From Antedon mediterranea (lineage: Eukaryota > Echinodermata > Crinoidea > Comatulida > Antedonidae): a DNA stretch of 64,000 nucleotides. Every line of letters begins with the position of its first letter. Position 1 is the stretch's first letter. Below, in pieces: positions 30,801 to 57,832 of the stretch. The position numbers and the translations under genes are program-made. The DNA lies in the NCBI RefSeq assembly GCF_964355755.1, contig NC_092670.1, positions 12,647,201 through 12,711,200 of the forward strand, in the 5' to 3' direction. Below the pieces are notes generated by a model. That model did no database searches and was not told the origin of the DNA. It saw nothing but the letters and a program-made list of their open reading frames with translations.

Positions 30801-33800
30801 GTTTTCACATTTAAAACTAAACTCAAAACTCATCTCTTCAGAGAAGCATAATCGCACGCTACTACTTGCACTGATCTTGGAAAACACAGCGCTTTGAAAC
30901 CTTTGTCTCTTGCGCTTTATAAATGTTATTTATTATTATTATTATTATTATTTATTCTGGCCTTTTTGTTATTGAAATCCATCTCACACAATGACGATAC
31001 AAGATGTCAGCTCCTAGGTCAAACCTTGTTTCGCGTCATAACAGGAAACGTTCTGATTGGATACAACGTTGACTTACAGTAGCGTCGTACGCTAAAACGG
31101 TACTATCAACCGTTTTCCACTACAACGCTACAACCGTTGTACGACGCGTTGTACGCTAATCCCCAACTGTTCAGACACACATTCTTTTAGCGTCGTACGC
31201 TAAAACGGTCTAACACCATGGGTCTGAACAGGGCCTTAAACAATACAACATTATACAAATGACATTCAAACATAAAGATACAGTACAAGAGGATTCATAT
31301 CTGAGTAAGTTAAAATTCTTAAACAGAAAAAAAAAAGTTAAAATTCATACATGTATAGTACAATAATTTAGACAAATGTTAAAATTTATTAAATTTCATA
31401 TAACTGTTTATTCTATTTCAATGTTCTTTTGCCTAGCAACATAAACAACTAATTCTTTGAATCTTCTTAGGAGACATCATTAGCAGCAGTTGTGTTTGTC
31501 GTACAGTCACACAGGATGTACTATACAAATACCAGTTTCGGAAGTGAATATTAAAACAAACAGCTTATTATCAATTACATAGGTTCTTAATGACCTAGAA
31601 CTTAGAAGAGTATCATTATACAATACAATATTACCCAATTAGGAAAGAGAGCATAATTAAAAAACGTTAGTTCAGCTGCTATGCTAAAGAGGGATCTTGT
31701 TTCAGAATATATTTATGAGAATTTTGAATTTAAAGGAAACATTGGCTGTTGATACAAGTCTGTGAGGTAGCACTAGTCTTCCATAGAGTCAATAGTGAGT
31801 TGATACACTCACTTGAATTATAATGCTTTGAGGCACACACTGGGCTTATATTTGAACTACTAGGATAAAACTATAACAGAATTTAATTAAACACCAGCAA
31901 AAACACCTCCAAAAGCGGTCTTTAATTGGAGTCACAATCACATGTGTAATGAATAACATGGTTGCAGTAGAACAATCGTGTGTGTTGGGTATTGTACAGT
32001 ACACCAATTATTAATAATAATGTAGATCTTCATAAAAAATATTCTAATTTGCGACCACCAAAAAGAACAATAATGTTCCAAAAGCGGTATTTAATTGGAG
32101 TCACAATCACGTAATGAATGAATGGTTGCAGTAGAACAATCGTGTGTGTTGGGCAGGGAAAAATTTCATTTTAAAATTTTGTAATGTACAGTACACTAAT
32201 TAATATGTAGATCTTCATAAAAAATATTCTAATTTTAGACCACCAAAAAGAACAATTTTGTTCCAAAAGTGGTCTTTAGTTAGAACCAGATGAGTCATGA
32301 TATGTTAAACACTGATAATAAAACTGCATACCTTTAAAGTACAAAGGTACAATGTAGTTATCGCTGACATAGTGAGTAAACATTACAAATTGAGCATGCT
32401 TTTTTCAAAGGTTAAGATTGTCTGGCAATAATCTGTCACATAATCAGTCATTAGGAGTTGAAAAAATACTCTTTGAAAAAAAAAAACTATCCTGACAGTG
32501 AACATGTTGACTTGATGACATGCGAATGGTTGAATAAATACAGAGTAGTACACTGTCCAATGTTGATCACAAACTATGAGGATGATTTGCTGTTAGTATC
32601 GTAATGACAGGATTAATGAGATGTCAGAGTCTGTTGGCTGATGGCGACGCTTGGCTCGCTCACATTTGCCTCTTTGTAATTTCAAAACTCATACAATACC
32701 AAATGGATCACTTTACATCAGTAGCCTCCAACATTAGCATGTGATCATACACAATTACATCAGTTGAACAATTCTAGCATCCACTATATATTACCACTGA
32801 CAATCTGCTTTCCGTATTGATAAAGCGTTTTACATAAAACTAATTTAAAATGAAAACTAAAATATTAATAGTCCCCGTAGTATAATTAATGTCTAAAAGA
32901 TTATGCATACTATGCTATGAATATTTCCTTCGTAGCTTGTGTGTTACGATTTGTGTTACAATTCTTGTGGATCAATTAAATGTATTCTAATAACATAATC
33001 TGTTCGTTTATTAGTATGACAGGCTGTAATTTCAAAATATATTGTATATAATATTCTCTTTCAAAAGGAAATTTATCTGACTTTGAGTACAGTAATTTGT
33101 ATTTTATATAGCGTTTTTTTTTTATATCAAAATATTATTTTAATATTTGATGTGCATGGCCCCAGGGAAGAAAATGAAAACCCTGTGTTGATCTTGGCTT
33201 CAGTAGATAAATAAAGGTGAACTGTACGATTCTGAATCTACTGTAATAAGCTCCACAGCAGTTTTTGTTATCATAACGTCTTCAAAATGGAATTTTTGTG
33301 TCTTCTACCCTATTCTCAGAATAGACTATCCATGTATTCTTTTTCTCAGTCCAGTAGGAAGATAGTTGCAGATCCCCTACATTTACCTTTTCTTTTTCTA
33401 TTTTATACGTGAACATTCAATAGCGAGCAACTCAATTATATTATGAGGGATAAACTATACTTTATCGTGCTTATAAACTAAGTCTCGTTTGAGGCTTAGG
33501 GAGTGGAGTTGAAAACTACAACCCTGACATTACTGTAGGTCAGGATCGAACCCTGAACCTTGGGATTGGAAGGCAAGCATGTTAACCACCAAGCTACTCC
33601 ACTCCACTTATGGTTCAACAATATTTTCTTTTTAATCTTGTAGTTATCAATTATTTGTAACTATACAGTAAAAAGTGTTCCATATTTTAGATTTGTAAAG
33701 AGCTACATATATTTTGATGAGCTATTTTTAATGTGTGTTTACCACTTGTACTTATACCGACTATCACTTGACAATGAATGCCGAGGCCAAAAATAAGGTT

Positions 33801-36800
33801 ATGATAAAATGTGTCACACTGTACAACATTTATAAAATAAATTTACAATAACATGTTTGTTATTTTAGAGAATTAATCTTGAAATCATATTGATCATATT
33901 GAGATTTTAGATTAAAATTATTTGTTGTTTCTAGCTTTTAAACAATAATGGACATATGGCGAGATCTAAACAGTAAAATGGTAAAAAATTAATCTGACTG
34001 CCGTACTGTACATGTTGGAATGATGGAACTTGTTTCAACACTGTACATGTGTGTATAGAAGACAAAAGATCTTGCGTAGTGCATTGTGTTTTTGCTCTAG
34101 ACAAGCCCATTGATACTTTTATAGTTAGAACACCTTCAGGACCAACAAATATTGCCCTCTGTATAGGTATTAGCTGTATTGTAGTGCGTACTGTACATTT
34201 CCCCGTCGTTCATTTCAAAGAAAAGTGTTCACTCAACAATGTGTGTCCTCTGAATAGGGATGTCTCAAAGAGGGGATTATACATTAAAATTAGTTTACTG
34301 TACTGCATCATACTTTGGCCAAGCCATCCGATGGACAAAAATGACAAAAAGAATGCATGAATGATAAAGACAGGCATACTGTATGTTATGATTTATAGAC
34401 AGGGACATTTTCAAAAAAATGTGAACTCCTCTTTAAAGGGTGTCAATTACTACCAGCAGGCCTATGTAACATAACTTTTATAGCATGCTTTATTGATTTC
34501 ATGCAAATGTTGGTTCAATGTTGTATTTTGGTATTGCTGTCAAGTAATAAAACACACTGGATCAAATGCCTGCATTTAGTGTATATTGCCAACATCAAAG
34601 TAATCCTACTCCAGTGTACCATGTACCAGTGATTGCATTCGGTATTGGATTTACTGTATTATCATATAATTTAATGAGAAGTCAGAGTGAAATAGTCAAC
34701 GCTTTAGAGTTTAGAGAAATATAAACTTTTCCATTAGTTATAATCCACCTGTCTTTTAAGCCAAGCCGAACTCAGAATACCATTAACACAAAAATAGTAA
34801 GACAATAACCTTTGACCTTAGATAGTTCAAATGCACAAGACAGACGTAAACATTGTTAGAGACAGCATCCATGTTTATCACACACACACACAGCTTGGTT
34901 TCCACTAGGATCCAACGCAAGGACGTAAGCGCATGTAGTAATATGATCAATCCCAATTTGATGATTCCATCATTTCATGATTGTACACATTTTTTGTATT
35001 GTGGTTACGTTGGGTCTTTAGTGGGAACTACAGTACGCTTGAGATAGTTCTTAGATAGATATATGTGACTAAATATACAAAATCATGATTTAAAAGAATA
35101 AAAGACAGGTTTAAAGTTCAGCTAATATTACAGTTCAAAGTAAATGCAAATAATTACCGTTTCACTATCCATTTCCGGTGATCGAGTACTCGTCATTACT
35201 ACTGTAGTGTATGGATCTGAAAAACACAATGATGGTATAAAATTTAATGTTTTAAGGAAGCAACATGATATAAGTTATTACACAAAACGAGGTGGGACAA
35301 TGGGGTTAGGTAGCTTTTTCAACTTTAACCTTTGACCCCAAAAAGGACATCAGGCACAGGTCATCTTCTAAACCAGCCTACTGTACAGTACATGAATAAA
35401 ACAAAATCTAAGAATTTCACAATAAAAACTGTTGGATGACCAAATACCTGTCAAATGGACAGCATTAATTTGTCTACACCTTTTAAGTTGTCATGCTTAT
35501 AATTCGCAAAAAAAGGCATTAAAATCAATGGAGTCAAGATGTCATATGAGATTGTCTGCTTTTAATTTAGTGATTTACTACTGTATGGTGATGATAGCTG
35601 AGATGTTAAGATCTACAGTAAACTGCATATATTATAGTTGAACAGTATACAGTACTTATACAGTACAATGGAGATACTTTATTGGATCCTGAAAGTGGAC
35701 CCTATAGGGATTCTACTGTAAATAACAAAACAGTTAACTATTTCATAAAACAGTTTAAATAGCAATTAATTGTAAACAAGCTGAAGCTGAAAGGAAACAT
35801 ACAGTAGTTTGAAATGTTTATTATACTACTGTATACTTTCTTGCTATTGTTTTATGAAGTGGTAGAAAAAAGGTAGTTATGTAAACAGTTTTCCATGCTA
35901 CTGTACACTGGTGAAAACTGACATCTAAATCTAAAAAAGATGTTAAATTATTAAAATAAGTTTTTATTTATTTATTTTTTTTTTGTTTGTTACCGTAGTC
36001 ATCTTTTCTATACATTTCTTTCCCTGAAGTGACCCCTACATTCAAATACTAAATCCAACACTAACACCATGATTTAGTGAGAAATTCAGCAAATGAGAAA
36101 ACCAGAGGAAACTACTTATGATGCTTAGAGACTATATCCGAAGGCCAGAGAAGTTTTGGCTATATACCGGAAATAGTAATTTCAAATCCATTCCAATTTT
36201 TCTTCAAAAGGAAAAGTTTAAAAACCAGTCATTTAAATGGTATTTTTCAGGAAGGCGAATTCAGTGAACTGGAAAACTTCACAATAAAGGTCAAAGATCA
36301 AATTATGAGTGACAAAAAACTTTTTTGTTGAAAGATGTGTATCAATTGTATTTAATTTAATTCAATTGTGCTTCTTTAAATAACAGTATGGTGGGCCAAG
36401 CTGTTGTTTATTGAATAAAGATATATTTTGGAAATGAAATATTTAAATTTTAAATGGATGTTTCTATTAAAAAATGAAATAAAACTAAAGAAATCTATTT
36501 AATTAGAAAGCATTAAGTTTTTAAAAGAGATATATATTTATTCTCTATATCAACAGAAATCTATATTTAAAAAATATCTTTATTAAAACTAAGATACCTA
36601 ACTATTAACTAACTCTATATCTCTATTTTCCAAATAAATGACAGTACTAGAGTACAGTATGATACTACGGTAATACTGTATGGTAAGTAAAATATAACTG
36701 TATTTTGAAGGACATAGTTTGTACAGTATTAATAACATAACAACTGTAGCCCTTTCAAGGTGCTATTTATTAGTAATGCCAGTTTAATTTAGGAAACAGA

Positions 36801-39800
36801 CTTGTATCTTGTGAGAAACTTGGGCGTTCATTTGCAGATGAGCTTTAATATCCTTCCCACTGGAAGAGTGCCAAGCAAAAAGTTACTAAGTTTAACTTTT
36901 AAGAAGAATATTAAATGCAAAACACAAACAAATTATCTAAAATCATAAAACATTTGTACTGTATTGTAGGTGTTAGATAAAATTTGAAATGCTGTAAATA
37001 CTAAAACGGAAATTAATTTGGTACAACCTCTCCAATATAAGTTTTGAGATAAACTTGGGATATTTAGTATTATATAACACCTATATAAATTCCTGTCATT
37101 TGATTGGACGAATGTGGGTCACATGGCGTGCAATAGTACGCACTATTCAACGATCGTTAAATAGTACTTTTTGAAACATTTTTGTGTACGAAAAAAAAAC
37201 GTCTCGCGGATGAAAAAAAATCTAGTACACAAATTATCCTATGATATGGCTATGTACTGTGAAATACAACAGCGCCACCTGTCGTCTGGTCTCAGTTTCA
37301 TTTGTAAACACCACCGCGAGATATGCAACAGCAGCAGATATTTGTGTACGATTTGGACATTATGTACTAATTTCATTCAAAAAGGCATTTAAATTAGCTT
37401 TAGATCGTTTTTAGGATTTTGATTAATTAATGGGGACATCCCTACAAGACGTGGAATTGTTGGAAAAACCATAATTAGCTTAGATAAGTTCCAATTGTCT
37501 GTCGAAGTTTTGCCTTTCAGCCAAGCTAGTACTAGGCTACTAGGTCTAGCCTAGGCCATGCTAGTATTAGGCTAGGCCTAGCCTAGGCGTTTTAGCCTTG
37601 CTAGGCCTAGGATTGTTTGGTCGTTTGTTGACATAATTAACACAAAAGTAGGTGTGTTTACAAAATCCATATAAATATAACATTTAATATAACATTATTA
37701 AAAACCAAATGTTACTGTTTTTAATCAAATGTGTGTGAATGAAATGTAGTAAGCTTTGGCTAGGGCTACCTTTTATTTTATTCAAATAACTAGAATTTAT
37801 TTAGATGTTATATAAAACAAATAATGAATGTTTTGTATTGCCGAGTTGATATAACCTTTCATCATTCACCAAGTGCCATTATTTGTACCATTGCACTCAT
37901 AAACATTCATTATTTGTATACTGTATGAGATAAGAGCAATATCAATGTTTCATTCAATACAGATTCGTGAAATTTATAAGTCTTGTTCCTCTGTATGTGG
38001 CTAATAAAGTTTAATTTTTATAAATTACTCGTGATATTAAATTGTTCACATAATTATTATAATACAACTTCCTTCTAACATGCTTACATAGGTTAGTTTC
38101 AGTTATTATTTAATTGTATTGTAAATTAAAAAAAAATAATAACTGTTAAGTCTAGTTGCTGAGTGGTTTATAGATGGATGCTCTTAGAACTGGAGAGTAA
38201 ACAGAAGAAAAGAACAAGGGTTTGTCTGGTGTTCTGATCAATGTTATTGTTATCCCCTTGTTGTTTAGCACTGTGTTGGGCTACCCTACAAGTTTGTTAT
38301 GGATTGGAAATTGGAAACCAAGAGTCGCCATATGTCGTAATAGAATGAAAAGGAAAAATGATAAACATAATTATTAATAGAACTACATTACTGTACACCA
38401 ACTGTACACACTTTTGTTTTCGGTTTCTTTTTTCTAACAACAAGTTTAACTGGATGATAAACGTCATCGCTGTTTGTACAATGTTTAAATTACCATTGAG
38501 AAATGTAAACAAATTGTTCCTACTATACTTAAATCGTGCAAGAATTTTATTTTGTTAATGTAGAGAATCTGGTAGCTTTTTGAGGTAGGGTGGAGGCGAT
38601 GGGGAAAAAGATGGAATTATGTTTCATTAAGATGAGTCTGGTATTGAGTTTTACAGTAGTTATAATGGCTGCCAGTGCAACTTATGAGCTCCCTTTACAC
38701 CCAGCCAAAGTTCAACAATTGTTACTGGTTTATAATGCTCACATAAACTGTTCGCAGGACCAAATTTGGGCTTGTTTGAGAAGTGGAAATTTTGGCAGAT
38801 ATAAATAATGTAAACATGTCAACATTTCAATACATATTGCCCATAATAAAGATACTTTATTGGGCCAATTGAAAAAAGATTGATATCTCTGTGTGCTTTC
38901 ATAAAGTCCATCAAAATAGGGGAATTACGTCAGTGGTTTTCCCTTTCCTTTTATACAGTCATATTTACTAATATGGTCAAAGTTTCAACAGTATTGGCCC
39001 ACTAGTTATTATTCACTCCAACCAACTCAATACTAATATGTAACCAAAGTTGTAATGTAATAAACGTAATGAATTATCCCAAAATTTTTTTCCAGCAGAA
39101 ATGGGACATACAGTATTTAAAATGAACAGGTAAATGGCAGACTGAAAATAACAGTTAAAAACACCAATGGGCTGGATTTAACCAGTTATCGTGCAACTTT
39201 TAGCTGTAACTCAAAATGCCGCATGAGCACATTTCATTACAAAAAAATTGTTATGTTCATCGCCGACGATCAGTTCCGATTCAAACATTTTTTGGGGAGA
39301 AATGCGGTCAATGTAAAAACTACATCTTCAAAAAATGTTGAAACAAACTGCTTATTCGGCGATATGCAGCAGAAAGAGACCGCATTGTGTCTATTAAATA
39401 CTGAAGCCTCTGGGTTAACCAATCCCATCTTTCTTTGTTCACAGTGGATTAAGTAAAAAATAAACAAACGATCTCATTATCATTTACTGGGCAGTTTTCA
39501 GTGTGTAGACCTTGTACAATACAGGATCTGTTCATGTACAACCAATGCGGTTGCTAAAGAAATAGCAAGTTGGTTGGTAAATAATATACCAACCAAGTAG
39601 GCTTAGAAAACAATTCAATCAGGCCCCAGGCTTATACCTCTAATGGATTCCCAAACTATACATTGCGTGTACACTGGCAATAAACTTTGTTGTGATGCAA
39701 CAATACAGTAGGTTGAACAACCATCAAGTTAGATAAATAATAGACATAGGGTATTAATATAGGCACTACTGTAAAATGGGTCTTTCCAAGACAGATTATT

Positions 39801-42800
39801 AGTACTGTTAGCAAACATAAACTTTGGCATACAAAGATATTAAATTATGATGTTAAATTATAACCTGGTATCATCAGGTCAGATAATAATTAATGTACAG
39901 TACAGGGCCGTAGCCAGGATCTGTCAAGGGGGGGTTCCCACCCCAATACCTCCCCCCCCCCTGGGGTGGGGCCTGAGGCGAAGAAAATTTTGTTAAATGA
40001 CACCCCTAGATGGCCGGAAAAGACACTCTCATGCAGCATTCTACCAATGAGCAAAACGATCGTACTTGGACTCGTGGACTATTTAAACGATAACATTTGT
40101 TGCCGTATGTTAGATGCGCGTGTTCTGTGCGGAACCGCCGATTGTTTGATCATTTACTCGATATTTTGTTTTGCGTTCAAGTTCAATGCGAACGTACGTC
40201 TAGGAGAAGCCCCGAAAAAAGCACACTGGGTGAAAGCAAATGCAATTCTTATTATAGCTCTATCTATAATATTTATTTACAGCAATTTGTTGAGGAAATT
40301 AAATATGCCAATGTAAATAGGTGATATTGATACATTTGAGTACGTATCGGCGAAGCAAATTTTGTTAAATGACACCCCTAGATGGCCGGAAAAGACACTC
40401 TCATGCAGCATGCTACCAATGAGCAAAACGATCGTACTTGGACTCGTGGACTATTTAAACGATAACATTTGTTGCCGTATGTTAGATGCGCGTGCTCTGT
40501 GCGGAACCGCCGATTGTTAGATCATTTACTCGATATTTTGTTTTGCGTTCAAGTTCAATGCGAACGTACGTCTAGGAAAAGCCCCGAAAAAAGCACACTG
40601 GGTGAAGGAAAATGCAATTCTTATTATAGCTCTATCTATAATATTTATTTACAGCAATTTGTTGAGGAAATTAAATATGCCAATGTAAATAGGTGATATT
40701 GATACATTTGAGTACGTATCGGCTGGTGGTCTAGAAAAAAATAATCGGATGCCATAATGTGAACTACAGTACATGATACCATAGATATTATAGTGTAAAA
40801 TATTAATATTCACTATAATCCTCTATGATACATTATACTTCATAGCCACACATAAATACTGATGTATGTCGGAAGGCTATATACTTTATGCATGCTGCCT
40901 GACTGCCAGTGATCTAAACAATTGGTACGCAGTTGTCTGGCGGTGTCCTTTGTACGAATCGTTCGTCCCCCAGCTCGCTGTGAGACGCGTCAATATCATG
41001 TTGAATGCAGGGACCAAACATTTATTTTTCAGGTTAAAATCGGCAATTCATTCGCTCGAAGTACGCTCATACAGGGAAGAAGGTACTGTATGAGTTATTC
41101 CGAACGAGTTTACGAATTTTTTTATTTACGAACAACTTTTTGTACTGTGGGGCACGTATTTGGACGATTTTCGGAGATGAGGGTGAGGTATTGGGCATGT
41201 CGGGGATGGGGGTTCGCAGTCGGTTAAGGGGGGTTCGCTGTAAAGGGGGGGTTCGCCCGAACAATAAAAACCCCCCCTGGCTACGGGCCTGCAGTACAGT
41301 ATGTCAAGTGTTATTGGTAAACAAGTTATATCTTAACTGTACAATTGATAATGTTATAATTTATTAAACGTTGTATGGTTGGTAGGCCGAATGTAATTAA
41401 TTAATGAATAGTTTTCGCACGTAAACCTTAATTTTAATTGATGACGTTAATAATCTTCTACTTATTAGTAGCGTAGTTCAGCAAACGGTTACGATAATGT
41501 ACAGTACTTCTTCGTTTTGTTTTCGCTTCAAGTCGAATGCAACGCATGTGTCAGTCACGCAAACGAATTGTTTACAAAGTTCGCAGAGCTTGCTGCATGT
41601 TCAGAAAAATCTCTAAAGTTTAAATAGCATTTTCATGATTATTGGCTTTCCAATTTATTTGCAATGAGATGAATAATACAGTACTGTATGTTTTTGTAAA
41701 GTCTGTCTGGAATATGTTAACCTAAAAATGAACCTCTAAATACGTATCATGATATATTCAAAACATATTACAGGCTAATAGGTAGAAAATAATCATCATT
41801 AATATATTTCTACAGGTACGCTGTACGTTTTTTTTTATTCAGAGATAATCTAAACTAACCCACATAATTAAACCTAATTTGCATAATTTATTCAAAATTA
41901 ACAAATGATATGAATTGTTGTTTTTAATACCATGTACTGTATGATTGATAATTCTTTTATTAATACATTTTCTTACAGGCACTTAATACTGTACTGTACA
42001 CTGAATGAATGTTTGTTTTATTCTGGGATAATAACCCAAAAAAAAACTGACTACATAATTAACCTAATTTGCATAATTTATTCAAAATTAACAAATGATA
42101 TGAATTGTTGTTTTTAATACCATGTACTGTATGATTGATAATTCTTTATTAAGACATTTTCTTACAGGCATTTAATACTGTACTGTACACTGAATGAATG
42201 TTTGTTTTATTCTGGGATAATAACCCAAAAAAACTGACTACATAATTAACCTAATTTGCATAATTTATTCAAAAATAAAAAATGGATATGAATGGTTGTT
42301 TTTACTAGATGTGTATATTGTATAATAATAACCAGCAATATTATCATATTATATTTAAGGGTTTTTTAAACCAATCGATAATCTACAGTAGTAATAATTT
42401 TTTACAACATTATTTATAGATATGGAAATGAAGAGGAATAGTCAGCCTTCATTTCTTCTCTTAGTCTACAATACTGTAAATCTGTATTAGCTTTGTACAC
42501 TGTACTGTAAGCTCCCTTTATAACAAACCACACCCTTCTTTTGTTAAAATCCCAACCATTTTGAATTCACCTTTAACTTTGTGTGACCCGCACATCTCGG
42601 CCAAACTCTCTCTTTCTCCGAAAAAAGGACACTAGGACTTTCACTTTGTCCTATTTGTTACAAAAAAACAATCTTAAACAAAACTTAGCCAGACTTTTTA
42701 CAAAAGCCTCATGACAAAAGTCCATTCTGAATCGTTTTTCTATTTGTGTTTAAATGGTACTTGTGCAGGCAGCGTTTCCTGTTGACAATATTCCATAATA

Positions 42801-45800
42801 GTTTTTGCAGTTATATAACTGGGATAGTGCCTTCCGTAGGGAATCAAGTGACACTGAGGCAACATTGGTGGAAGTAATCATTGCTGGTGGACTCGAATAA
42901 AGGGCAAAAGGAGGGCTAGGACCAAAATATTATCAAAATTGTTTGTAAAGTAAATGACTAGATTTGCTAGTATAGTACTACTATCTAAGTTAACTGGGAT
43001 AATGTTCTCCAGATGCAAAACGTAGCATTGGCAATAGTTTAAGCTCCACTAAAGATTCATAATGGTCAGATGGTTAGGTCAAAGGTGGTATCTTTTTTTT
43101 ACTGCAGTTTAATTAGTAATTTCCTATACTTTCCAGTACTGGTATATAACTTGGGATGATTTAGTGTTTCCGAGACGGAAACAAAGTTGGTAAACATTGC
43201 TAATGAAGATTGCCAAATGGTTTCAGTAGTTAGGTCAGGGGTCATAATTTCTCTACTTCTGTTCCTGTAATTTTCCATTGCGAATGCCATAATTTGAAAA
43301 GAGAAAATGAAACGTATTACGAAAAAAAAACAACCTATTACTATTACGAATTGAATTGGTTACTCTATAGATGGTCAAACAGGCTAGGTCAAAGGTCACA
43401 ATTTGTTTACTTAATATTACCATTTTTTTTTTATACAATTTTTAATTTATAATTTTATTGAAGTTGCTGCAACATAACAGTGTTGTCTTCATAGTAAAAT
43501 CTTTAATACATTATTGATAATATTTAACCTAGAAAATCTACTTATAAATGTAAAAATTCTACAATATATTTAAGTGGCTTGGCCTAGTTCTGAAATCCCA
43601 TCAATGTCTCAACGAAACAATTCTACTCGCATATTTCCTAGCTAAAGAACGCCATTAATTCTTATTACTTTCATGAACAGACCATTATCAGAGAATTATT
43701 AAACAGACTACATTCATGTACAGCGTTATGGATCTTATTTTACCACAGTTAGTAATTTTAATATCAGATGTTGGCATTAATTTTAAATCAATATTTTTAG
43801 AATTTGTGGAGGAAAAACGAAAATCATTATTTATAAATTCAGAAAATAATGTGCAGTACTCTACAGGTAATCTGTAATGTTAATTCTGAATGTTCCTTAT
43901 AACACATAACAAACTGCAAGAACATGACTCACATATTACAGGATGGGAACAAACTCATTTCTTTTAAAACCGTGTCCTGTACTAGGCTTCAATGGCTCTG
44001 TGTTGGCAATGAGAAAGGATTTGAACCTGTGACTAGGATTTCTAAAAAAACACCAGCAAAACCTATCAATTGGATTGTTAAATCCAAAAAACTCTGCAGA
44101 CCTCCAAAAAAATAGCAAGCCCCATCAAAACCAATTAGTAATTCAATCATGTTTAATAATAATGTCTTTCGAATAGCGCCTTTAAAATAAACAAACATTT
44201 TCAAGCGCTACGATCAAAAGGCTCGAACTAGGTAAAAATTATGTTGTTTCAATGGGGTATCAGTGTTCTCTCGATGTAAAAATAAATTTTGGATAATTAG
44301 GCGAGGTAACAACAAATAATAAATTGTACTGTCAATCAATAAAATTTACAAATAAAGCCCCGCGATTACTTTTGTGTAATGTTTTTATTAGCCTAGCCTA
44401 CCCTACAAAGACACTATTCTTTAAGGTCATATTTTCTTACAATATTTTTAATAATGGGTGGGAGAAATTTGTCCATGTTTTTTTTCTTCAGTATTTAGTA
44501 GAAAAACTCTGTTAATACTGTAACCACGAAGCAACAGTTCCACTAATATTCTAGGATATTAATTTTGTGTTTAACGCTACTTCAGTAAACCTCTAATTCA
44601 AACAGCATACACGACAACCTAAGGCGTTGCTTAGCATACAAAATCAAAAAGAGATCCGAGAAGTGGTTCACGAGAAATGAATATTGTAAACTCTGCTTTC
44701 GTGTTTCGAATTAATAAAGTCATTTCATCATTGTCATCTCTAGCATGATGACATTATAAAGGTTAAATAATCTTGTATCCCTATGAATGATTGATAATGT
44801 CATAATTAATTTTAGTTTAAAGCACTGTCTACACTATCAAACTAGTTTGACAAAAAAGTGTGATGTACCCAAATATGGTAGTGATACTATACAGTATGCT
44901 CAAATATGGTAGTGATATGACATCATCATCATGTCCATATATGGACACATCTCAATTTTGTGTCACATAAAGTTTGACGGTGTAGACAGAGCTTTACTGT
45001 AACATCAAAAACTAGTTAAGCCGTCCACTTACACTACTGTAAGTTCTGTGTTTATTACATTTACTCAGAAATCTTACAGATTATAATTAAATGAAAATAA
45101 ATGAATACCTTCTTTGATTATTATTGTGCAAACCTCTTCTATTTAATTAAATATAGCAACTGCAATAGAATAATTTTGAGACGATTCCTTACACTTTTAC
45201 AGTACCGTATTTTGTCTACGTGAAATGCGATTAATCGTGTACTGTATATATCAAACAACAGTATGAATGAATTAAGTGGTTACTTTGTTTTTAGTAGAGT
45301 ATCATTAGAGAAAGTCGATGTCTATAGCCAAGGGGTAGTGCTTATTAATAAAACCACAGAGACTATTTCAATGATTTTACTATTACACTGCAAGGTGCAT
45401 AAATTGTACGACTTTAAAACTTAATCTGTTATTGGGATCGATTCATATACCTGTAGTCGTTCACATTATTTGCCGAGCACAAAGCATGCTTGATACAGTT
45501 TACTGTACTGGCCCATGAATCTTTTTACTGTACCATAAAAAAAAAAAAGTCAATTCCCCTGAAATGAAATGGTCAGGGAATTTTGTTGATACGTGGGGCT
45601 ACTGTACTACATTTAATTTAAAGTATAAAAATAGTATTTGGAAAAACTCAATTTTTCATAAAGTGGTACAGTAGAGCATCATGTACAGTTTTTGTATGTT
45701 ATTGTTACAATATTATACTGTACTTTTTATGTAAAGTATGGCAAGGTAAAGTCAAATGTTATGTTAACCACGCTTATTATTTATAATAAAAGAGAATTTG

Positions 45801-48800
45801 TAAAGAATAATTGTTATGATGGCGTCAGAAATATCCAACAATTTTTCATGTTATGTCTACTTTTAAAGCATCTTTTTCTTAAGGCATTGTAGTAAATGTC
45901 GAATTACTTTAATTGCAAATTTTTCGTGGAATAATAAAAAACAAAACGATTTCTTTGTTTGGTAAAAAATCAGGCATAACAATGTTAAAAGCTGATAATT
46001 CTTTTAACTACCAAGAATAATAAAACTTCAATCTGTTGATTAAAAATAATGGAAAGTTATTGCAACAATGTATTAAACAAAGGAATCCTAAAACAATACC
46101 CAGAGGAACAAAGGAATCATAGATAAGAATAATAATCATTATCTAGAGACACCAGGAAATCGTAGAGACTGTAAAAATAAACGCATTTTTACAACATTGA
46201 AAATTACATTATGTTGTTGAGTTGCAACTACATTTAGATAAGATTTCTATCCATAGGGAAAAGGGCAGTTTTCCACTAATGTATGAAATGTCATCATTCC
46301 ATGTCCAGTATAGAGTACGGTAAATGTAAATTATACAGTTGAAAATGTGAACTACTTTTTTAAAAAATAAATAAAAAATGCCACATTCAAATTTATCATT
46401 AATAAAAGACATTCAAATAACATTCTTCTCATTTCCTCAATTTTGAAAATAGATTAAATAAATGAATTTGGTAAAAAGAACCTCGACTAAATTGACCAAT
46501 CTGAATGCTGGCTTCAATTTCTCAAGTTTAAATTCTAAGACCAATGGTCAATGTTATCAACCACTTCCACCCAGTAGAACTTACCATGGTCTTGGTAAAA
46601 CAACCATGCTGGCTAAAAAGTACAATCTGAACAATGTGACTCGGGGTAAACCAATGGTAAAACCGAACGGAATTAGTGTGAACAATGATTAAAGTTACAG
46701 TCCCTGGTTTAATTTACAATTTTTTCAAGCCCAGTGCGAACAAGGCTTAAAATGTCTGCTTGCCATCTGGTAATTACATGTACTACAGTATATTATCACA
46801 CCACTTGCAACTTGACAATATATTTACATGGAATATTTGTCCCACTTGGTACAGTCTGAGTAAGTACTGTAGTGTATAGTAATATATGGACGATTTATTC
46901 ACCCTTGACCATTGATGGTCAGTACATGGAATATCTGTCATCAATAAAGGACCGCTACCTATCATCAAATACATTTAAGTACTGCTTATCTATAATATAA
47001 TAAAAATTATAGAATATTTTCATGAAAAAAAACCCATTTACCTGTCCTAATATTTCCGGTAATAATTATTAATACTGTACTGTGTTATCTGAATTCTCCA
47101 TTAACATTTGACATAATAATGATTGCGTCATTGGTGGAAAATCACGAGCATTAAACATCAAGAGAGATGGTCAGACGTGTGACTTGAGCTTATGGGCATG
47201 GTACAGTGGTCTAAAGCAATGTCGACACTATCAAACATTTTGTGACAAAAAAATGTGATGTGCCCATATGGACATGATGTCATATCACTACCATATTTGG
47301 GAATACCACTACGATATTTGGGCACATCAAACTTTTCTTGTCAAACTAGTTTGATACTGTAAGTGTAAGTGTGTTCTACCCACTGCATTATACTTACTTG
47401 ATATTGAAACAGATTTAGGGTCAATTGTGAGGCTACCAATTTCTCCCTTATTTGCTGCATCTTTGATCACCGTCTCAAGTTTCTTAAGAGACAATGTTGA
47501 ATCTTCAACTATTTTTAATTGTGTGGTTGCAACGATAGATCCCTCATAGAATTTTAGTACTCGGCATTCATGGCCATTTTCTCTGTTCACTATTGTGTAT
47601 ACCTAGAAAAAGTAAGAATTACTAAAATGATGCAAGTCCTATGTTACTACTGGACAGTCAGCATGAAAAATTGTTTTGATCCCTTCTGCTATCATTATTT
47701 TATAAAATAATGTTATGAAATATTTAAATTTTGTAAATTTGTATGTTAATTTTATTTTTATAAAAGATTTTCCACAAACAACTTTTAAAACTATAATTTT
47801 CAAAATTTTTTAGAAATTTGCAAAATTTAGTAATCACTATAAAAATTAAATACCAGAGCAGAATTAAAAAGTAATATACTCAATTTTGACATTTGAAAAT
47901 ATATAAAGATAATTATATAATTTTATATATACAGTACAGTTCATGTTTTTGAAACCTTTTCTTAATTCAATCAATTTCTCTCAGTTTACAATAATACAGA
48001 TAAAAATATTTGGTAGGAAGGATAGCAGAACGTATTTTTTTCACAAGAAAGATTAAACAAAGAGTTCATGTCCCCGAGTGACCTTCGCAAAAACTAATCT
48101 CGATATTTATATTATTCAGAGTTAATACTTTAGAGGTTAGTTGGTATACTACAGTACATACTTATACAATAGTAAAACATTACAAAAATATATATAAATA
48201 ATTGTGTAAAGTTAGTCTGTCTTCATTTCACTAAAAGACATTAGCATTATTTAATTATTCATGTCACGATGGGAAGTGTTAACATGAATACTGTAGCCGG
48301 CTTGCTGGGCTTTCGTCGGAGAGAAACAGCGAAAAGAATTAGATAATATGAGTAAGGGAACTACAGTCAGATGATGAAACTATCAGGAAATGAGTCAAGA
48401 TCGAATGGACAGTTTCATTAAATCGCTTACTGTACAATTAATTTTTTTTTTAGACAAATAATTGTATTATTTGTAGTCGTTGGTATTGTACCTTCCAATT
48501 ACTGGTGTCTTATTATTTTGATTTATCCAACCTCCCTCCCTCCCTCCCTCCCTCCCCCCCCCCCCCCTTGTACAAGGAGCATCCTTGGCCATGTTGACCA
48601 CACTGAGGTTTTTAAGGAGCCAATGGAAAGATACATGTTTCCTCACCTTCCTTATCTTACCAAACTCATTTTTGGAAATTGAACAAGGTTAAATTTGGCA
48701 CTTATTTTCCCATCTATAAGCTAGCCACAATCATTTATTTTTAAATCATGGATCCGTCATTTAAATAACAGAAAATGTCCACCATCGCCAATTGTCAGTG

Positions 48801-51800
48801 TTGCTTAGCTAGAGAATACGGGATTTTTTTAAAATGAAACAGGAATTGGCGATTAAACAAAATTGTTCGACAAATTGAATAAATCGAACAATAAGAATTG
48901 GCATGATGCCAATTAACCACCAGAACAACAACAATTTAAGAAACATGGGTTCTGTATGGCCTTGTTTACAAAGGCTAAATATATTCTGCAATTCTTCAAC
49001 TGTGAAGGTCGGAAACATTGTTTTTTACAGTGAATTACACTTTGTTCAAACATTGCTGTACAGTACAACTTGTATTGTTTCTAAAGTTACTGCGTATTGT
49101 GGATTTCCATGTTTACTGGGGACGGTATTTAAACGCACTTTACAGTTAGTATAATTATGCTTACCCCATTACAAACAGTTTCAGCCGTTTCAATAAAAAG
49201 TGGCGATGTATTATCCAATAGTTCATCAGAGAATTTTGCTTTTTTGCCTTCGATGTTAGTAACTCTCAGGTTCAACACAACAATTTCTGTTTCTGTAAAA
49301 TATTTTAATGAAATGTTAAAACAGGTTTATCCAGGTAAGTTAGGCAGAAAACAGACACAATTCAACCTAGAGAATAACCGATTATGAAAAAATGAAAGAA
49401 CAGAAGAAAAATTGAAAAACTTCTTAGTCTGTTTCAACCATCTTCCTCCTTACATTTTTCTGAATTTTTTTATATTAAACTGTGCAATTGTTTCAGCATA
49501 ACCTTGCATACTGTAGAGTAGTCTCGTATGTAAGTACATCATCCTACTACAGGCCTGGCTTTGAATGTACTGTACAAATAGTAGCCTACTTTATCCCTGC
49601 ATACTGTAGTGTCATAGGGTTTAATATAAATTTAGTTAAAAAATGTGTTTACTACAGTACCATACCAAACAATGTTGCAATATAGCAAATATTTACAAGC
49701 TGATTTTTAAAATGAACATGGCATGCTACTACAAATCTATATTACTAATTAGGTCACCTAATTCTGGCTCATGGTAATTGGTATAGTACTGTACAGCACT
49801 GTACAGTACATGTAAGAACTAACTACTGTAACTACAGTACCTGTACTGTACTTTATGTCTTGATTTTAGGATAAATTAAACATCCTACAAAAATATTAAA
49901 TACTCTATCAATCATCATCATGGAAGAACACTACTCTGTATACGGTACGGCAGTTTTTTTTTTCCATAAAGTGTCTCCTTGTATAGTCCTATTTGTGGTC
50001 TAATCAATATTAATTGGTTTGAAGGAGGTTTTCACAGATTGTTTGGGGTTTGTGCAAGGTTTGCATGCAACACCCTAGAAATGTCACATACAGTACCTTC
50101 TTCTTCAGTACCTGATCCATCCACATTATTATTTGGAGGTGGGGAGCCACTACCCTCGATGCTAATTCCATCCCCACTGCCTCCTTCCATTTCTTCATCA
50201 GGATTTATATCCATCGTATTCCTTACTGGTACGTGGTCTTCATCTTTCTCCCGTGAATATGAGTTTTTGTTGTTTGATGCGTTTGCAAGCTTCAGAAAAA
50301 GAAATAAAGATTAATTTATTGTTTTAAACTAAACCACAAACCAACAGTGATGTAAGTACACAGTAGTAGTCTATGATATGAGTACCACTTAAATTACAGT
50401 ACCTGAATATCAAAATTAGCCTTTGTTTCAGAACAGAAAAAAATAAGAATTTTTCATTGAAACATCGTTGCCTGGAAATGTGACGGTCCACAAACTGTGG
50501 ATCATTTATTTTCTCATTGCTGTGAGCATGTTTAAGTACAGTACAAGAATCAAAGGAACTAAAAGTATTCCAGGAATAGTATTACTGTACAATGAGTTGT
50601 TTTCTACACTTTGGATATAAGGGCTAATGTTGGTTTATCCGGGTAAGTTAGTCATGAAATAGACTACAGAATTTAATGTTCAGCTTTTAAAGTAAACTGG
50701 TACCAAAAAAATTTCGTTTAGTTTCGCTGAGGTACAATACTGTAGACAAAGATGTTAAAAACACACTTAAAAGAATTTAAAAATTTCACTGCATTAATAA
50801 TCTTCTAAGAGAATATGTTAAGCCAGTACCTCAGTCAACTTTGGCTTAGCCTACTGCACAGGTAGGTTGTACTATTCTGTACAATAACAAACAATCAGGT
50901 CCTCCAATACTGTACCACACAATATAGTATTAATCTTAATCTTAGTACAGAAGTGTATTGTTTGCTCTTTCGCAATAAACTGTTCAACTTTCCCAAATTA
51001 AATACAGTTGAATATTATTACACAAACTAATGATTGAACCTTCAACCTGCAACTAATGGGCACAAATGGCTTGGAATTAAGAATCTATGCTATCATAAGT
51101 ACCATTAAACGGGAGCCAGGGATTTGCAGAGGTCGTAATATGGTTGTTACTAAACCAGGTACATCATGCACTTAAAACTATTGAATTTACAAACGAACGC
51201 ACATATAATTATCATCTCATTAACTTTGATAATATATTAAGTCTTTAGCGTCCGAAGTTCATTGCATAAAATTTTATGCGGTGCAATTAATTGATAGATT
51301 TACACGCCTTTGCGATTGGGTACATTATCCTGATTATCTAGTCGGGCAAACTTATCCATTTTTATTATTAAATGCCACCTTCAATCAATATTCGCAACGC
51401 CTTTGAACTTTTACACATAATTCTATCAGTCAGTAAAGAAAGTTTATACGACTAAAACTGTTCATTGTACTGTATTTATTATAAAATACGACATACTTCA
51501 GTCGGTGGTAAAATACAGTAGCTAATGATGTTAATCAGTAGTAACGTTAAATGTGTTGTGAATATTGATGCACATTAGGATGGGCTCTTCGGCATTGATG
51601 TTGTGTGAATTAGATTGCAATTTGAACCTTAAGGCACAGCTCAATAGTGTAACAGATATATCTGTCTGAATACATCTTATTAGTGTGTGAAATTAAGGCT
51701 CTGTCTACACTATCAAAACATGTTATGTGCCCATTATATGGCCATGATGATGTCATATCACTACCATATTTGGGCACATCACATTTATTTTGTCAAACTA

Positions 51801-54800: not shown

Positions 54801-57800
54801 GGGGTTTGCTATATTTTTTTGGAGGTTTGCGGGGTTTAGCAATCATTTTTGACCAAAAAATGATGTTTTACCCCAAAAATAAGTAGTTAACAGTAGAAAT
54901 TTAATATTTTTTTAACATGAATATACCCAGTGGGTTGTACACTACATGATTCAATCACTTTTATGTTGGTTCAATGGGGTTTGCTATATTTTTTTGGAGG
55001 TTTGCGGGGTTTGCGGTGTTTAGCAATACCCCTAAGTGCTTCACATTATCGCCTCTGTCATTTTTTGGTAAAACATGTATGAATTGAAACCATAGTGTTC
55101 TCCCACAATGCAGCAGCTAGTAATCAGGTTAAAGTTATGTCTTGACCTAACCGGGCACTCCCATTATAAGCTCTGAAGAACCCTGTCTGTACACTTACTG
55201 TAACACAGTATAAAAGAACCCTGTCTGTACACTTACTGTAACACAGTATAAAAGCAACAATCATGGTTGTTCTTTTCATACTGTAGTTTAACTAGTATTA
55301 CCAACACATAATTTAATCCACCAGTGATCTACTCTTTTGTCACCTGAATGAAGAAGATTTTGCATTTGTCATTGTCACACCATAAACTAACATAATCCCT
55401 GTCTATTGAAAATTTCAATTGTTCGGCCTAGTCAAAGAGGCGACAACACTAGTGATCGATCCTTTCGGGTGGATGAATAGACCCACAGGAAGTGATCATT
55501 GTGTGCAAAATAAAAAGATTTTCTTGATTTTAAACTAAAATGCTAAATCTTCTATGGTATTTACAGTCCTATATTTAAAATCTTTGATGAAATGGCTATG
55601 AATAATAGATGAAAAATACATGCTGATAAAGTAACTTTCACACCTTTAGGAATTGGTTTAAAACATGACTGATTTTGAATTCTTGTACAGTACAGAGATT
55701 GAACACTCTCTAAAACCTTTTAATAGACTAGTGTTTGGCAACTGTACATCTACATGTAAATAGTAAAGGTGAAAGACATGTACTGTATGTAGCGCTATAT
55801 GAATAAATATTTAAAAAAAGAAAGTCCTATTTCTAGTAGCCCTAAAAGTATTACTATATTTTTGCTTACACCATTTTTAAAAATGTGTACATTTAGTAGC
55901 AAATATCGTACTACAGTACCTGTACTAATAAAGGTAGTTTATGTAGTATTTTGCTATCAGTATGCTACACACTTCAAAAATGTTACCCGACTAATACTGT
56001 ACAGTATAGTTTTTATTAATACCATTCCATTTTGTATTAAAATTGTAATTAATTCCAAGCTGCACTTTACAAAAAACCATTGAAATAAACTCATGATTTA
56101 TGTATCATAACAATACTACCAAGTAATAAAAACATAATTTGTTTATGTCTCACAATAAGAACTATATACAATAGTACTAAACTGAAAATACTATAGTGAA
56201 ATGATGGCAATATATTTTATTGTGCAACAGAAACCACATACGGTAACTTTATTATTGTGTAGATTTACAATACAGCACATAAATGTAAATTAAATAATAA
56301 AGTACACATTAGCTCATGTCTGAATATAAATTTCTTAAGTTACTGTATAAGTTAAGTTACTGTATAAGTTACACAGTATGATTTTAGACAGTGAGTGACA
56401 AATAAACAATGCTTGATTTGAGGATCCAGAAATTATATGTAAAAAAATAATTATTAAATAATATTCACACTCACTGAACTGAGCATGGGTGGTACATTTA
56501 GGCATGAGGACTTATTTCAATGAAATACTGTATAATCCTACAGAACTGTACATCATTGTGATGATGTCACAATATGTAGTATGAAAATAAAATAGCTTTA
56601 AATTTAACAAATAAAAAAAGTCATTGACCCATTCAATAACCTTAAGTTTTCTTCGAAAAAAGATTTGAGCAATACTAAAGGAAGTAGTGATTTACTTTGT
56701 TAAGCACAATTTGTACATTTGTTTCAGTTCATCAGTGTGTGGGTGAGCTAGCCTAGAATATCATTCACCAGATACAGTTAATACATATCTCTATGCATTA
56801 TATATTCAATAAACACAAGTTGTCACTGGACATGTACAGTATGTACAAAGTATAAAGTCTTGTCAATCAAGGTTTAACAGGAAATTTCAGTACCAAGCAC
56901 ATTAAAAGACAATTAGGGAAAAAAATTATTGTCTACACATTATCCATTCCCTTTTCATTGGGTGATTAGTCACACAGTAGACATTTTATCAATTCAAAGT
57001 AGAATGACTCATACCACATTAAATTTACCTATTTTCATTCAAATAAATTATTTTTAGATAAATTAACAGGTAGAACTCAACAAAATATCCCGATAGGGAT
57101 GTCCCCTAAATATAGGTGTTGGCCGTAATGTTTGAAACAGTAATTTTTCCTTACTTTTACTATACTAGGCCCTTATATTATTTAATATAAATACTAATTA
57201 TTAATATTACTATGTTTTTAATAATATACATATATATACCGGTACTGTATTTTAAATTGTTAATATCTTTTAAAAAATAAATAGGGGCCTAGGCCTAGCT
57301 AGGCCTAGAAAAAAAAATACCGCATGATTCGATTGTCCATCGTGATGCTGCGCGCCTAAACTAAAAAGTAGGGCGCGCTACACTTGGTTTGGTTCAGTTC
57401 CACCTCTTGTCTTCTAATAAAGAGCTAGGCCGGTCTAGCCCACTAATATTAATACTATAGGCTTTATCATTATTTATTGGAATACATCATAGGCCTCACA
57501 TAGGCTAGGCCCACCACCACCATACATTAACGTTGATTGAGAAAACATTTTTTTAGTAACAAAGAGTGCAAGACAAATCAATTTGTGTAAAATAATACAG
57601 TATTATGAAGACTAAATGTAACGTATTATATACACATAACGGTACAGGATTATATATATATTTCCATTTTGTATAATAGATGCTAAATAGTCGTAACAAA
57701 TCAATAACACAGATCCCACAGTCAGCCCCGGTACGACACGACGGCAGCAGGGGACTGTTTCATGCTTTCACAAATAATTACCTCGTCCAGGCTAAAAAGC

Positions 57801-57832
57801 GCCAAGAAGCACACGCAAACGTACAACCTCAT
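27808..57832 (-). CDS. SDC: Syndecan with an inserted SEA domain, 7 coding exons over 30 kb
   Basis: Coding exons: 57782-57832, 50097-50289, 49165-49292, 47398-47602, 35158-35216, 28434-28590, 27808-27971. All introns are GT-AG and all seven phases join in frame to 318 residues. Exon 1 encodes a hydrophobic signal peptide starting MRLYVCVCF. Exon 2 is an acidic ectodomain with three Ser-Gly glycosaminoglycan sites (Ser55, Ser64, Ser76) in acidic context. Exons 3-4 encode a SEA domain (about residues 83-192) with FSDELLD, a tract ending FYEG-SIVA, and a G145-S146 cleavage-like site. Exons 5-6 are a Thr-rich stalk. Exon 7 has one membrane span (about 265-286), then RVKKKDEGSYSLDEP and terminal EFYA. 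These are the conserved syndecan C1 region and the C2 PDZ-binding tail, so the family call is secure. Role known for the family: cell-surface heparan sulfate co-receptor linked to PDZ scaffolds. Exon 1 is the least certain exon. It rests on a signal-peptide ORF and a GAG/GTAATT donor. A further 5' UTR exon is possible. Confidence 0.95.
28679..28848. mobile_element. MITE family CTACACTATCAAAC, copy 2 (syndecan intron 5)
   Basis: CTACACTATCAAACTTTATGTGAC at the left, GAAAGTGTAGACAGAGC at the right. The core TGGACATGATGTCACATCACTACCATATTTGG is partly duplicated internally. The copy ends about 90 bp upstream of exon 6 in transcript terms. Confidence 0.8.
28950..29015 (-). repeat. tRNA-like relic
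   Basis: On the minus strand, box A-like CTAGTGGTCTAACAG is followed by box B-like AAGTTCAAATC. Stems are degenerate. Probably a SINE remnant in syndecan intron 5. Confidence 0.3.
29877..31236. mobile_element. TIR element of 1.36 kb carrying a nested LINE fragment
   Basis: The left end is AGGCCCTGTTCAGACCCATGG, then GTTAGACCGTTTTAGCGTAC. The right end is the inverse, with CCATGGGTCTGAACAGGGCCT. Subterminal TTTTAGCGTACAACG motifs repeat in both arms. There is no transposase frame, so it is non-autonomous. No clear target duplication is visible. Lies in syndecan intron 5. Confidence 0.85.
30660..30955 (+). mobile_element. 5'-truncated L2/CR1-like LINE: reverse-transcriptase C-terminus and 3' tail
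   Basis: From about 30678 a frame reads ...YGDRAFAVAAPKLWNTLPLEIR, then TFKTKLKTHLFREA and a stop. This is the characteristic C-terminal block of CR1/L2-clade non-LTR reverse transcriptases. After the stop come AGCGCTTTGAAACC and GCGCTTTATAAATG, then an (ATT)n tail, the usual 3' end of such elements. Only the last 57 or so codons are kept, so it is a dead insertion. Confidence 0.9.
31909..32275. repeat. Two-and-a-bit-copy tandem repeat, 169-185 bp units
   Basis: CCAAAAGCGG at 31909 recurs at 32078 and (as CCAAAAGTGG) 32263. Units share TTTAATTGGAGTCACAATCAC, GCAGTAGAACAATCGTGTGTG and AGATCTTCATAAAAAATATTC. In syndecan intron 5. Confidence 0.9.
33530..33606 (-). repeat. tRNA-derived SINE relic
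   Basis: On the minus strand, GGAGTAGCTTGGTGGTTAAC (box A), then GCTTGCCTTCCAATCCC, then a T-arm TCAGGGTTCGATCCTGA with a perfect 5-bp stem. The acceptor ends do not pair, so this is a tRNA-like sequence rather than a working tRNA gene. Confidence 0.55.
34891..35045. mobile_element. AAGCTTGGTT-type MITE (syndecan intron 5)
   Basis: AGCTTGGTTTCCACTAGGATCC with AACGCAAGGACGTAAGCGC at the left; GGTTACGTTGGGTCTTTAGTGGGAAC at the right. It ends about 113 bp before exon 5 on the map. Confidence 0.7.
37271..37283. promoter_or_regulatory. CTCF-like site 2 (syndecan intron 4)
   Basis: AGCGCCACCTGTC, reverse complement GACAGGTGGCGCT, carries the same AGRTGGCGCT core as the site at 21365. It is the better of the two matches to the known consensus. 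Confidence 0.35.
37531..37612. repeat. Cluster of overlapping AGGCCT/CCTAGG palindromes
   Basis: A run of TAGGCTAGGCCTAGCCTAGGC and similar words. Shorter runs of the same kind occur near 23330-23345, 23420-23432, 57290-57310 and 63855-63935. A genome-wide simple-word bias rather than a gene feature. Confidence 0.6.
38599..38808 (+). CDS. Unrecognised small ORF, possible secreted peptide, inside syndecan intron 4
   Basis: A 69-codon ORF on the strand opposite the syndecan. It begins MGKKMELCF and has a strongly hydrophobic stretch (about residues 12-25, SLVLSFTVVIMAA) ending in small residues, as in a signal peptide. The remainder is polar with a Cys pair (C51 and C59) and a GR near the C-terminus that could be an amidation and cleavage site (SGNFGRYK). 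I do not recognise a family. There is no visible splice context or promoter. An ORF of this length can occur by chance, so it is only a candidate for a small peptide precursor. Confidence 0.25.
   Translation: MGKKMELCFIKMSLVLSFTVVIMAASATYELPLHPAKVQQLLLVYNAHINCSQDQIWACLRSGNFGRYK
39903..41291. mobile_element. TIR element of 1.39 kb with an internal 372-bp tandem duplication
   Basis: The left end is CAGGGCCGTAGCCAGG and the right end is CCTGGCTACGGGCCTG (16 bp, one mismatch), each followed inward by C/G-rich runs. Inside, a block of about 372 bp (from TTTTGTTAAATGACACCCC to GAGTACGTATCGGC) occurs twice, at about 39986-40357 and 40358-40723, about 98 percent identical by eye. The ORFs of 75-116 codons in each copy differ by frame and do not resemble a transposase. 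In syndecan intron 4. Confidence 0.85.
41813..42300. repeat. Tandem repeat, 187-191 bp units, about 2.5 copies
   Basis: ACATAATTA followed by ACCTAATTTGCATAATTTATTC occurs at 41862, 42053 and 42240. Units two and three are nearly identical, including GAATGAATGTTTGTTTTATTC. Confidence 0.9.
43060..43440 (+). repeat. Degenerate 155-bp tandem repeat with a DR1 site in each unit
   Basis: Three units each contain an AGGTCA direct repeat with one-base spacing: AGGTCAAAGGTGG at 43076, AGGTCAGGGGTCA at 43232 and AGGTCAAAGGTCA at 43386, spaced 156 and 154 bp. The rest of each unit is only weakly alike, so the DR1 cores are better kept than their surroundings. Confidence 0.7.
43386..43398 (+). promoter_or_regulatory. 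Perfect DR1 nuclear-receptor site
   Basis: AGGTCAAAGGTCA is the consensus DR1 for RXR heterodimers and HNF4 type receptors. It is the third and best of the array in syndecan intron 4. Confidence 0.45.
44085..44150. mobile_element. Decayed fragment of the foldback hAT-like family
   Basis: GACCTCCAAAAAAATAGCAAGCCCC followed by CCAATTAGTAATTCAATCATG resembles the arms of the element at 54295-55031. Confidence 0.55.
44819..44994. mobile_element. MITE family CTACACTATCAAAC, copy 3 (syndecan intron 4)
   Basis: GTCTACACTATCAAACTAGTTTGAC at the left; GTTTGACGGTGTAGACAGAGC at the right. It contains a duplicated AAATATGGTAGTGAT core. Confidence 0.85.
47213..47370. mobile_element. MITE family CTACACTATCAAAC, copy 4, next to syndecan exon 4
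   Basis: GTCGACACTATCAAACATTTTGTGAC at the left; GTCAAACTAGTTTGATACTGT at the right. Its edge is about 28 bp from the exon 4 splice donor. Confidence 0.8.
47398..47602 (-). CDS. SDC: Syndecan exon 4: second half of the SEA domain with G-S cleavage-like site
   Basis: Sixty-eight residues lie between a TTTTTCTAG acceptor and a GTAAGT donor. The VLKFYEG-SIVATTQLKI stretch aligns with the SEA consensus F-x-x-G-S-V-V-V, where autoproteolysis occurs between Gly and Ser in MUC1-type domains. The last strand and helix follow as LKKLETVIKDAANKGEIGSL and then a terminal strand with the SVSI pattern. An odd Cys (CRVLKF) pairs in number with the Cys in exon 3 (ETVCNG), so one intradomain disulfide is possible. 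A MITE copy begins about 28 bp beyond the donor. Confidence 0.9.
48531..48567. repeat. (CCCT)n and poly-C tract
   Basis: About six CCTC repeats run into a C homopolymer of about 15. A strongly strand-asymmetric simple repeat in syndecan intron 3, and a likely site of sequencing error. Confidence 0.95.
49165..49292 (-). CDS. SDC: Syndecan exon 3: first half of the SEA domain
   Basis: The acceptor TATTTTACAG precedes 49292 and the donor GTAAGC follows 49165. The exon encodes 42 residues plus a split Glu. It begins TEIVVLNLRVTNI, a typical SEA first beta strand. Then comes AKFSDELLDNTSPLF, the SEA helix-1 pattern of Phe, acidic-Leu-Leu and a Ser before an aromatic. It enters in phase 1 and leaves in phase 0, and it joins the Ser-Gly exon to the exon with the cleavage-like site. 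Confidence 0.9.
51697..51833. mobile_element. MITE family CTACACTATCAAAC, copy 5 (syndecan intron 1)
   Basis: GCTCTGTCTACACTATCAAAAC at the left; GTCAAACTAGTTTTATAGAGT at the right; the core has CCATGATGATGTCATATCACTACC. Confidence 0.8.
53832..53844 (-). promoter_or_regulatory. Perfect DR1 nuclear-receptor site
   Basis: On the minus strand AGGTCAGAGGTCA, two perfect half sites with one-base spacing, in syndecan intron 1. Weaker one- or two-mismatch DR1 sites lie at 25343, 34806, 35326 and 36288. Confidence 0.45.
54295..55031. mobile_element. Foldback hAT-like element with perfect 8-bp target duplication
   Basis: The ends are GGGTATTGCTAAACACCGCAA and its exact inverse, TTGCGGTGTTTAGCAATACCC. 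The insertion is flanked by CTAAGTGC at 54287-54294 and again at 55032-55039, a perfect 8-bp target duplication typical of hAT transposition. The interior is made of four related units, two direct in the left half and two inverted in the right half, each with CAAACCTCCAAAAAA and CCAACATAAAAGTGATTGAAT. The whole can fold into a long hairpin. No coding capacity. Confidence 0.95.
55179..55253. repeat. 38-bp tandem duplication
   Basis: Two exact copies of a unit starting AACCCTGTCTGTACACTTAC. Confidence 0.95.

Follow-up and report, generated by a model that had tools for sequence, protein, structure and literature searches.

A syndecan gene of the crinoid Antedon mediterranea with a probable SEA module and a predicted self-cleavage site

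Syndecans and SEA domains in echinoderms and other animals

We describe a syndecan gene of the crinoid Antedon mediterranea in which two central exons very probably encode a SEA domain with a predicted site of self-cleavage. The gene lies on the minus strand of a 64,000-nucleotide stretch of the RefSeq assembly GCF_964355755.1 (contig NC_092670.1, positions 12,647,201 to 12,711,200; G000:C1:12647201-12711200 in our own numbering), which is called the window here and in which all coordinates below are counted. Syndecan shedding is usually attributed to metalloproteases, and we know of no vertebrate syndecan with a SEA domain. The encoded protein resembles the vertebrate syndecans in its C1 region, its EFYA-type tail, its membrane span and the glycosaminoglycan sites of its ectodomain (PMC1464127).

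The combination of a syndecan with a SEA domain is not new; it is ordinary for echinoderms. In the brittle star Ophiocoma wendtii, contig 00358 represents a syndecan/SEA protein that was among the most prevalent in the skeleton, and the combination was called novel in 2015 (PMC4336488). Like the protein described here, it holds a C-terminal syndecan domain and a SEA domain in one chain; going by its description, it differs in having multiple repetitive stretches rich in serine and acidic residues. More recently (2023), echinoderms were reported to have one syndecan gene, with a central SEA domain in the holothurians E. fraudatrix and A. japonicus and a below-threshold one in the holothurian H. 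leucospilota and the sea stars A. rubens and P. miniata (PMC10381214). The Antedon gene shares both traits, being the only syndecan gene found and carrying its probable SEA domain centrally. The same paper treats the domain as an exception among echinoderm syndecans, and in the available part of its text neither a cleavage site of the domain nor its exon structure or mechanism is mentioned, just as the available account of the O. wendtii protein mentions neither a G-S site nor self-cleavage. Among the papers listed by literature searches that lay mostly outside the subscription literature, and in the partial texts of the likely ones, there was no account of an echinoderm syndecan that cleaves itself or whose gene contains an inserted module. 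The original prediction, which had been made from the letters of the window, called for a comparison with the syndecans of other echinoderms; by way of the literature, that comparison yields a SEA domain in the brittle star and in sea cucumbers, a result that was already in print and that the prediction had left unmentioned.

Other SEA-bearing membrane proteins offer models for what such a domain may do. In MUC1 and MUC17, as predicted here, it separates a glycosylated outer region from the single membrane span, and it is autocatalytically cleaved during folding to give a heterodimer (PMC6705488), but the glycosylation is of the mucin type rather than the Ser-Gly type, and the site of many mucins reads GS[V/I]VV (PMC10687090). 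The SEA domains of ADGRF1 and ADGRF5 have the same five letters as the Antedon protein, GSIVA (seen in ADGRF1), whereas the proteins themselves are adhesion G protein-coupled receptors with a GAIN domain and not single-span proteoglycans. Finally, the retinal proteins IMPG1 and IMPG2 are likewise proteoglycans with a SEA domain and undergo proteolysis within it, IMPG2 being divided into a membrane part and an extracellular part (PMC9478142); unlike the present protein they are not syndecans, carry chondroitin sulfate and have two SEA domains.

Structure and identity of the gene

The gene was rebuilt from the sequence, and its exons were spliced by script. Five minus-strand exons give a coding sequence of 741 nt and a protein of 246 residues, the four introns all have GT/AG ends (4/4), and their phases (0, 1, 0, 1) are all compatible. 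Exon 1 (57782..57832) encodes a hydrophobic signal peptide, judged by eye, that comprises residues 1-17 (MRLYVCVCFLALFSLDE) and ends in a phase-0 donor. Exon 2 (50097..50289; phase 0 in, 1 out) encodes the acidic N-terminal region, residues 18-81, where Ser-Gly pairs at residues 55, 64 and 76 stand in an acidic context and are possible sites of glycosaminoglycan attachment. Exon 3 (49165..49292; phase 1 in, 0 out) and exon 4 (47398..47602; phase 0 in, 1 out) encode the first and second halves of the SEA-like domain, residues 82-124 and 125-192. They are followed by intron 4 (27972..47397), of 19,426 bases, and by exon 5 (27808..27971), which encodes residues 193-246: the transmembrane helix, the C1 region (YRVKKKDEGSY), a variable region, the EFYA end and the stop. 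The best hydrophobic 19-mer of the protein, taken as the membrane span, begins at residue 195. The observation of a syndecan with SEA-like exons 3 and 4 thus holds in the form in which it was first made: the span 47398-49292 given for the two exons resolves exactly into 49292-49165 and 47602-47398 on the minus strand, they lie with compatible phases between the Ser-Gly exon and the membrane/EFYA exon, and the residues then assigned to the SEA domain (83-192) match 82-192 of the spliced model.

On sequence criteria, the gene is the animal's syndecan and the only one found in its genome. The syndecan profile PF01034 matches the whole protein at 57.5 bits (cut-off 25.2), and exon 5 holds both the C1 region YRVKKKDEGSY and the terminal KEFYA with its stop. 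Across the genome PF01034 matched in two places, of which this gene is the better; the other, at 31.6 bits on C10, is presumably neurexin-like. A single syndecan gene agrees with the one per echinoderm reported in PMC10381214.

Evidence for a probable SEA domain in exons 3 and 4

Gene structure is better evidence for the SEA domain than its profile score, which is marginal. A search of the genome with PF01390 (SEA) at E 0.01 gave 11 matches (L003-L013), nine of which (L004 to L012) represent a first SEA exon. In 9/9 of these, a phase-0 donor follows exactly 11 codons after an F/Y anchor in helix 1, an anchor chosen after looking at the sequences, and the acceptor read for each is followed by the last two bases of a split codon, which amounts to phase-1 entry. 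One family accounts for seven of the nine (two aligned copies are 76 and 95% identical to L004), so the nine represent three lineages. The second SEA exon of those seven copies has 202 nt, with phase-0 entry and phase-1 exit. Exons 3 and 4 of the syndecan have the same layout, with phase 1 in, a phase-0 intron 11 residues past the aligned anchor F, and phase 1 out, and exon 4 measures 205 nt. Within the nine, the second half of L012 may be split once more and that of L008 was not found within its locus. Of the other two matches, L003 is unsplit, and L013, which starts at profile position 37 in phase 0 and directly behind an AG, was counted neither for nor against the anchor layout. The shared layout is support for the SEA identity of exons 3 and 4 that is independent of the profile score.

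The family just mentioned deserves a note of its own. L004, L005, L007, L009, L010 and L011 (on C1, C2 and C8), together with the more diverged L006 (C4), are closely similar two-exon modules that have multiplied across several chromosomes, and the L004 type carries LRSG-SVIA, the same kind of cleavage motif as the syndecan.

The profile evidence points the same way, with a marginal score. PF01390 matched exons 3-4 with E 1.2e-5 and 25.8 bits over profile positions 5-106 of 106 (the first letter of this query is intron-derived) and matched the whole protein with E 8.2e-5 and 23.1 bits. A profile built from five SEA domains, this one included, found 11 sequences in the PDB at E 1 or better. Eight of these belong to SEA proteins, namely ADGRF1 and MUC1 (two each), a MUC16-type domain, agrin and two transmembrane proteases. 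In a control for chance, stretches of the length of exon 4 (205 nt) were open in one given frame at 17/3084 sampled places in introns 2-4, and stretches of the length of exon 3 (128 nt) at 158/3095. Exon 4, searched against the whole genome at E 0.1, matched only itself.

Several results weigh against a SEA assignment. Both scores, 25.8 and 23.1 bits, fall under the curated Pfam cut-off of 26.4, so the Pfam search that the original prediction recommended returned a significant E value and a bit score just short of the threshold. When the single domain was searched against the PDB, no SEA structure appeared, the lone match being a zinc transporter (E 0.39), and 3/11 of the chains found by the five-sequence profile were zinc or manganese transporters rather than SEA proteins. 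An hhalign comparison with a profile built from four of the genome's other SEA domains gave a probability of 11% and E 0.0026, in an alignment that pairs FYEGSIVA with the LRSGSVIA stretch. Fold prediction was made for exon 4 alone, from the single sequence and with no alignment. The resulting model is poor (mean pLDDT 47.9); it has an initial strand and then two strands around the E-G turn, a helix and two short strands. The second half of a SEA domain should show these latter elements in that succession, but we give the model little weight. The full, ferredoxin-like SEA fold that had been claimed is thus a prediction. On the combined evidence, exons 3 and 4 very probably encode a SEA domain, albeit one of marginal score.

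The same exon phases bear on whether the two exons belong to the syndecan at all. They might be part of another gene nested within it, as the 19.4-kb length of intron 4 would allow in a model known from genomic sequence alone. Against this stand the common strand, the phase 1 that matches on both sides, and the published relatives that hold both domains in one product (PMC4336488; PMC10381214). A separate nested gene was rejected on these grounds, and we regard it as highly improbable.

A predicted self-cleavage site

FYEG-SIVA occupies the strand 2-3 turn, and by alignment its Gly145-Ser146 pair (codons at 47537..47542, minus strand, in the spliced model) falls where self-cleaving SEA domains are cut; the same stretch aligns with that of the LRSG-SVIA modules in the genome. 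The top match of the five-SEA profile, ADGRF1 (7wxu, 1.8e-8), has GSIVA at the same place, and a separate ADGRF1 chain, 8hc0_B, ends at that Gly, as expected of a cut domain. The corresponding site of matriptase reads GSVIA. Cleavage of matriptase falls at Gly149-Ser150 and leaves the chains associated (PMC5567652). In print, GSIVA is named as a motif leading to autoproteolysis in the SEA domains of ADGRF1 and ADGRF5 (PMC6954182); a further account, in its available part, states how far the SEA domain of ADGRF1 extends and does not mention the cut site (PMC7060178).

Stricter rules exist, and here they tell against cleavage. Self-cleavage has been tied to GSxxV (PMC9478142) and, in mucins, to GS[V/I]VV (PMC10687090); GSIVA departs from both at its last letter (A) and agrees with the broader list of PMC6954182. 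What had been predicted as an autoproteolysis-like site thus retains its G-S at the cut position and its published motif, but not the G-S[V/I]VV with which it had been compared. Since the strict GSxxV is absent, we say that the site may work like that of MUC1 and not that it is a strict MUC1-type site. With this restriction, self-cleavage of this syndecan is a reasonable and specific prediction.

We propose the following sequence of events. A SEA module of two exons, flanked by phase-1 introns and with a phase-0 intron inside, would have been inserted into the syndecan ectodomain. As the domain folds in the secretory pathway, strain at the strand 2-3 turn would break the bond between Gly145 and Ser146 with no protease, and the product would be a non-covalent pair held together as a single sheet. 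Its outer chain, extending to Gly145, would carry the Ser-Gly sugar sites, and a membrane chain of 101 residues (Ser146-Ala246) would keep the remainder of the SEA domain together with the helix and the EFYA tail. The sugar-bearing chain could then be freed by pulling or unfolding instead of by a sheddase. A syndecan with an inserted SEA module that cuts itself at Gly145-Ser146 into two chains separable by force is our best explanation of the locus, and we hold it with modest confidence.

The domain could instead fold without cutting itself and act as a spacer close to the membrane, or as a switch operated by a protease, with shedding by metalloproteases as in vertebrate syndecans. The missing final V of GSxxV (PMC9478142) speaks for this, as does the acidic, low-complexity stretch that neighbours the SEA domain here; with G-S at the expected place and GSIVA named as the autoproteolytic motif of ADGRF1 and ADGRF5, we nevertheless think it rather unlikely.

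Splicing and the membrane spacer

Splice sites were scored with a simple home-made matrix. Two results count against the five-exon model and its proposed behaviour. Two sites around exon 3 are weak, with scores of 0.8 for the donor of exon 2 and -3.3 for the acceptor of exon 3, and the last SEA strand almost abuts the transmembrane helix (residues 184-200, IDPKSVSISSMVGAAVL), leaving a very short spacer. In MUC1 the spacer from the SEA domain to the membrane is longer. Because of this proximity, intron 4 was scanned for a missing juxtamembrane exon. With thresholds of 1.0 for the acceptor and 0.7 for the donor, there were three candidates on the gene strand versus two on the opposite strand, none of them persuasive, and two stricter settings, one with an acceptor threshold exceeding every acceptor known in the gene and the other with thresholds above its weaker sites, left zero. 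The 19.4-kb intron therefore yielded no convincing extra in-phase exon, although an exon as weak as exon 3 would be missed, its acceptor (-3.3) being under the scan threshold.

Exon 2 can also be joined directly to exon 5 in phase, yielding an open syndecan of 134 residues with a Gly at the joint, so that a splicing switch is possible. Exons 3 and 4 may accordingly be a cassette that some or most transcripts skip, leaving an ordinary 134-residue syndecan; the phase-1 introns on both sides, the open product of skipping, and the two weak sites around exon 3 would fit such a cassette. We judge it improbable, as the splice sites of exon 4 are fair (6.0 and 4.6) and a SEA domain is present in the cDNA-derived brittle star protein (PMC4336488) and in holothurian syndecans (PMC10381214). 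Were both forms to exist, a cassette would be compatible with the self-cut, two-chain syndecan.

If the self-cut SEA domain acts as proposed, it would be a clutch that gives protease-free, force-sensitive release of a sugar-bearing chain, in echinoderms, animals known for rapid changes of connective-tissue stiffness. Such a clutch might help to explain a membrane proteoglycan in the echinoderm skeleton, as with the brittle star protein (PMC4336488). We suggest tentatively, and with less assurance than for the Antedon protein itself, that the syndecan of this lineage may, by gaining a SEA module, have become a self-cut, two-chain proteoglycan in which a mechanical clutch holds the growth-factor-binding sugar chains and load releases them without a sheddase. 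In-phase skipping of exons 3 and 4 could switch this clutch on or off from tissue to tissue.

Neighbouring features

Just upstream of the syndecan and on the same strand, two exons at 59458-60707 (minus) encode a tetratricopeptide protein (TPR_1, E 7.7e-16). It resembles TTC32, which lies near SDC1 in humans, and an ancient gene neighbourhood is possible. A search for LAPTM4 (PF03821), made for synteny with vertebrate syndecan loci, gave no match, which shows nothing. Farther along the window, a bZIP exon at 20425-20781 (minus; bZIP_2, E 1.5e-5) looks like CREBL2, and the exons at 17173-17466 and 15042-15233 (minus) look like CCDC43; the first of these two had no significant Pfam match.

Two kinds of repeat were seen by eye. 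Copies of a short dispersed element, which includes parts such as ATATGGTAGTGATATGA and GATGTGCCCA and may be a small mobile element of the non-autonomous kind, lie at approximately 44840-45000, 47210-47360 and 51690-51810. At approximately 54290-55060, a stretch around GCAAACCTCCAAAAAAATATAGCAAACCCC occurs in repeated and inverted copies.

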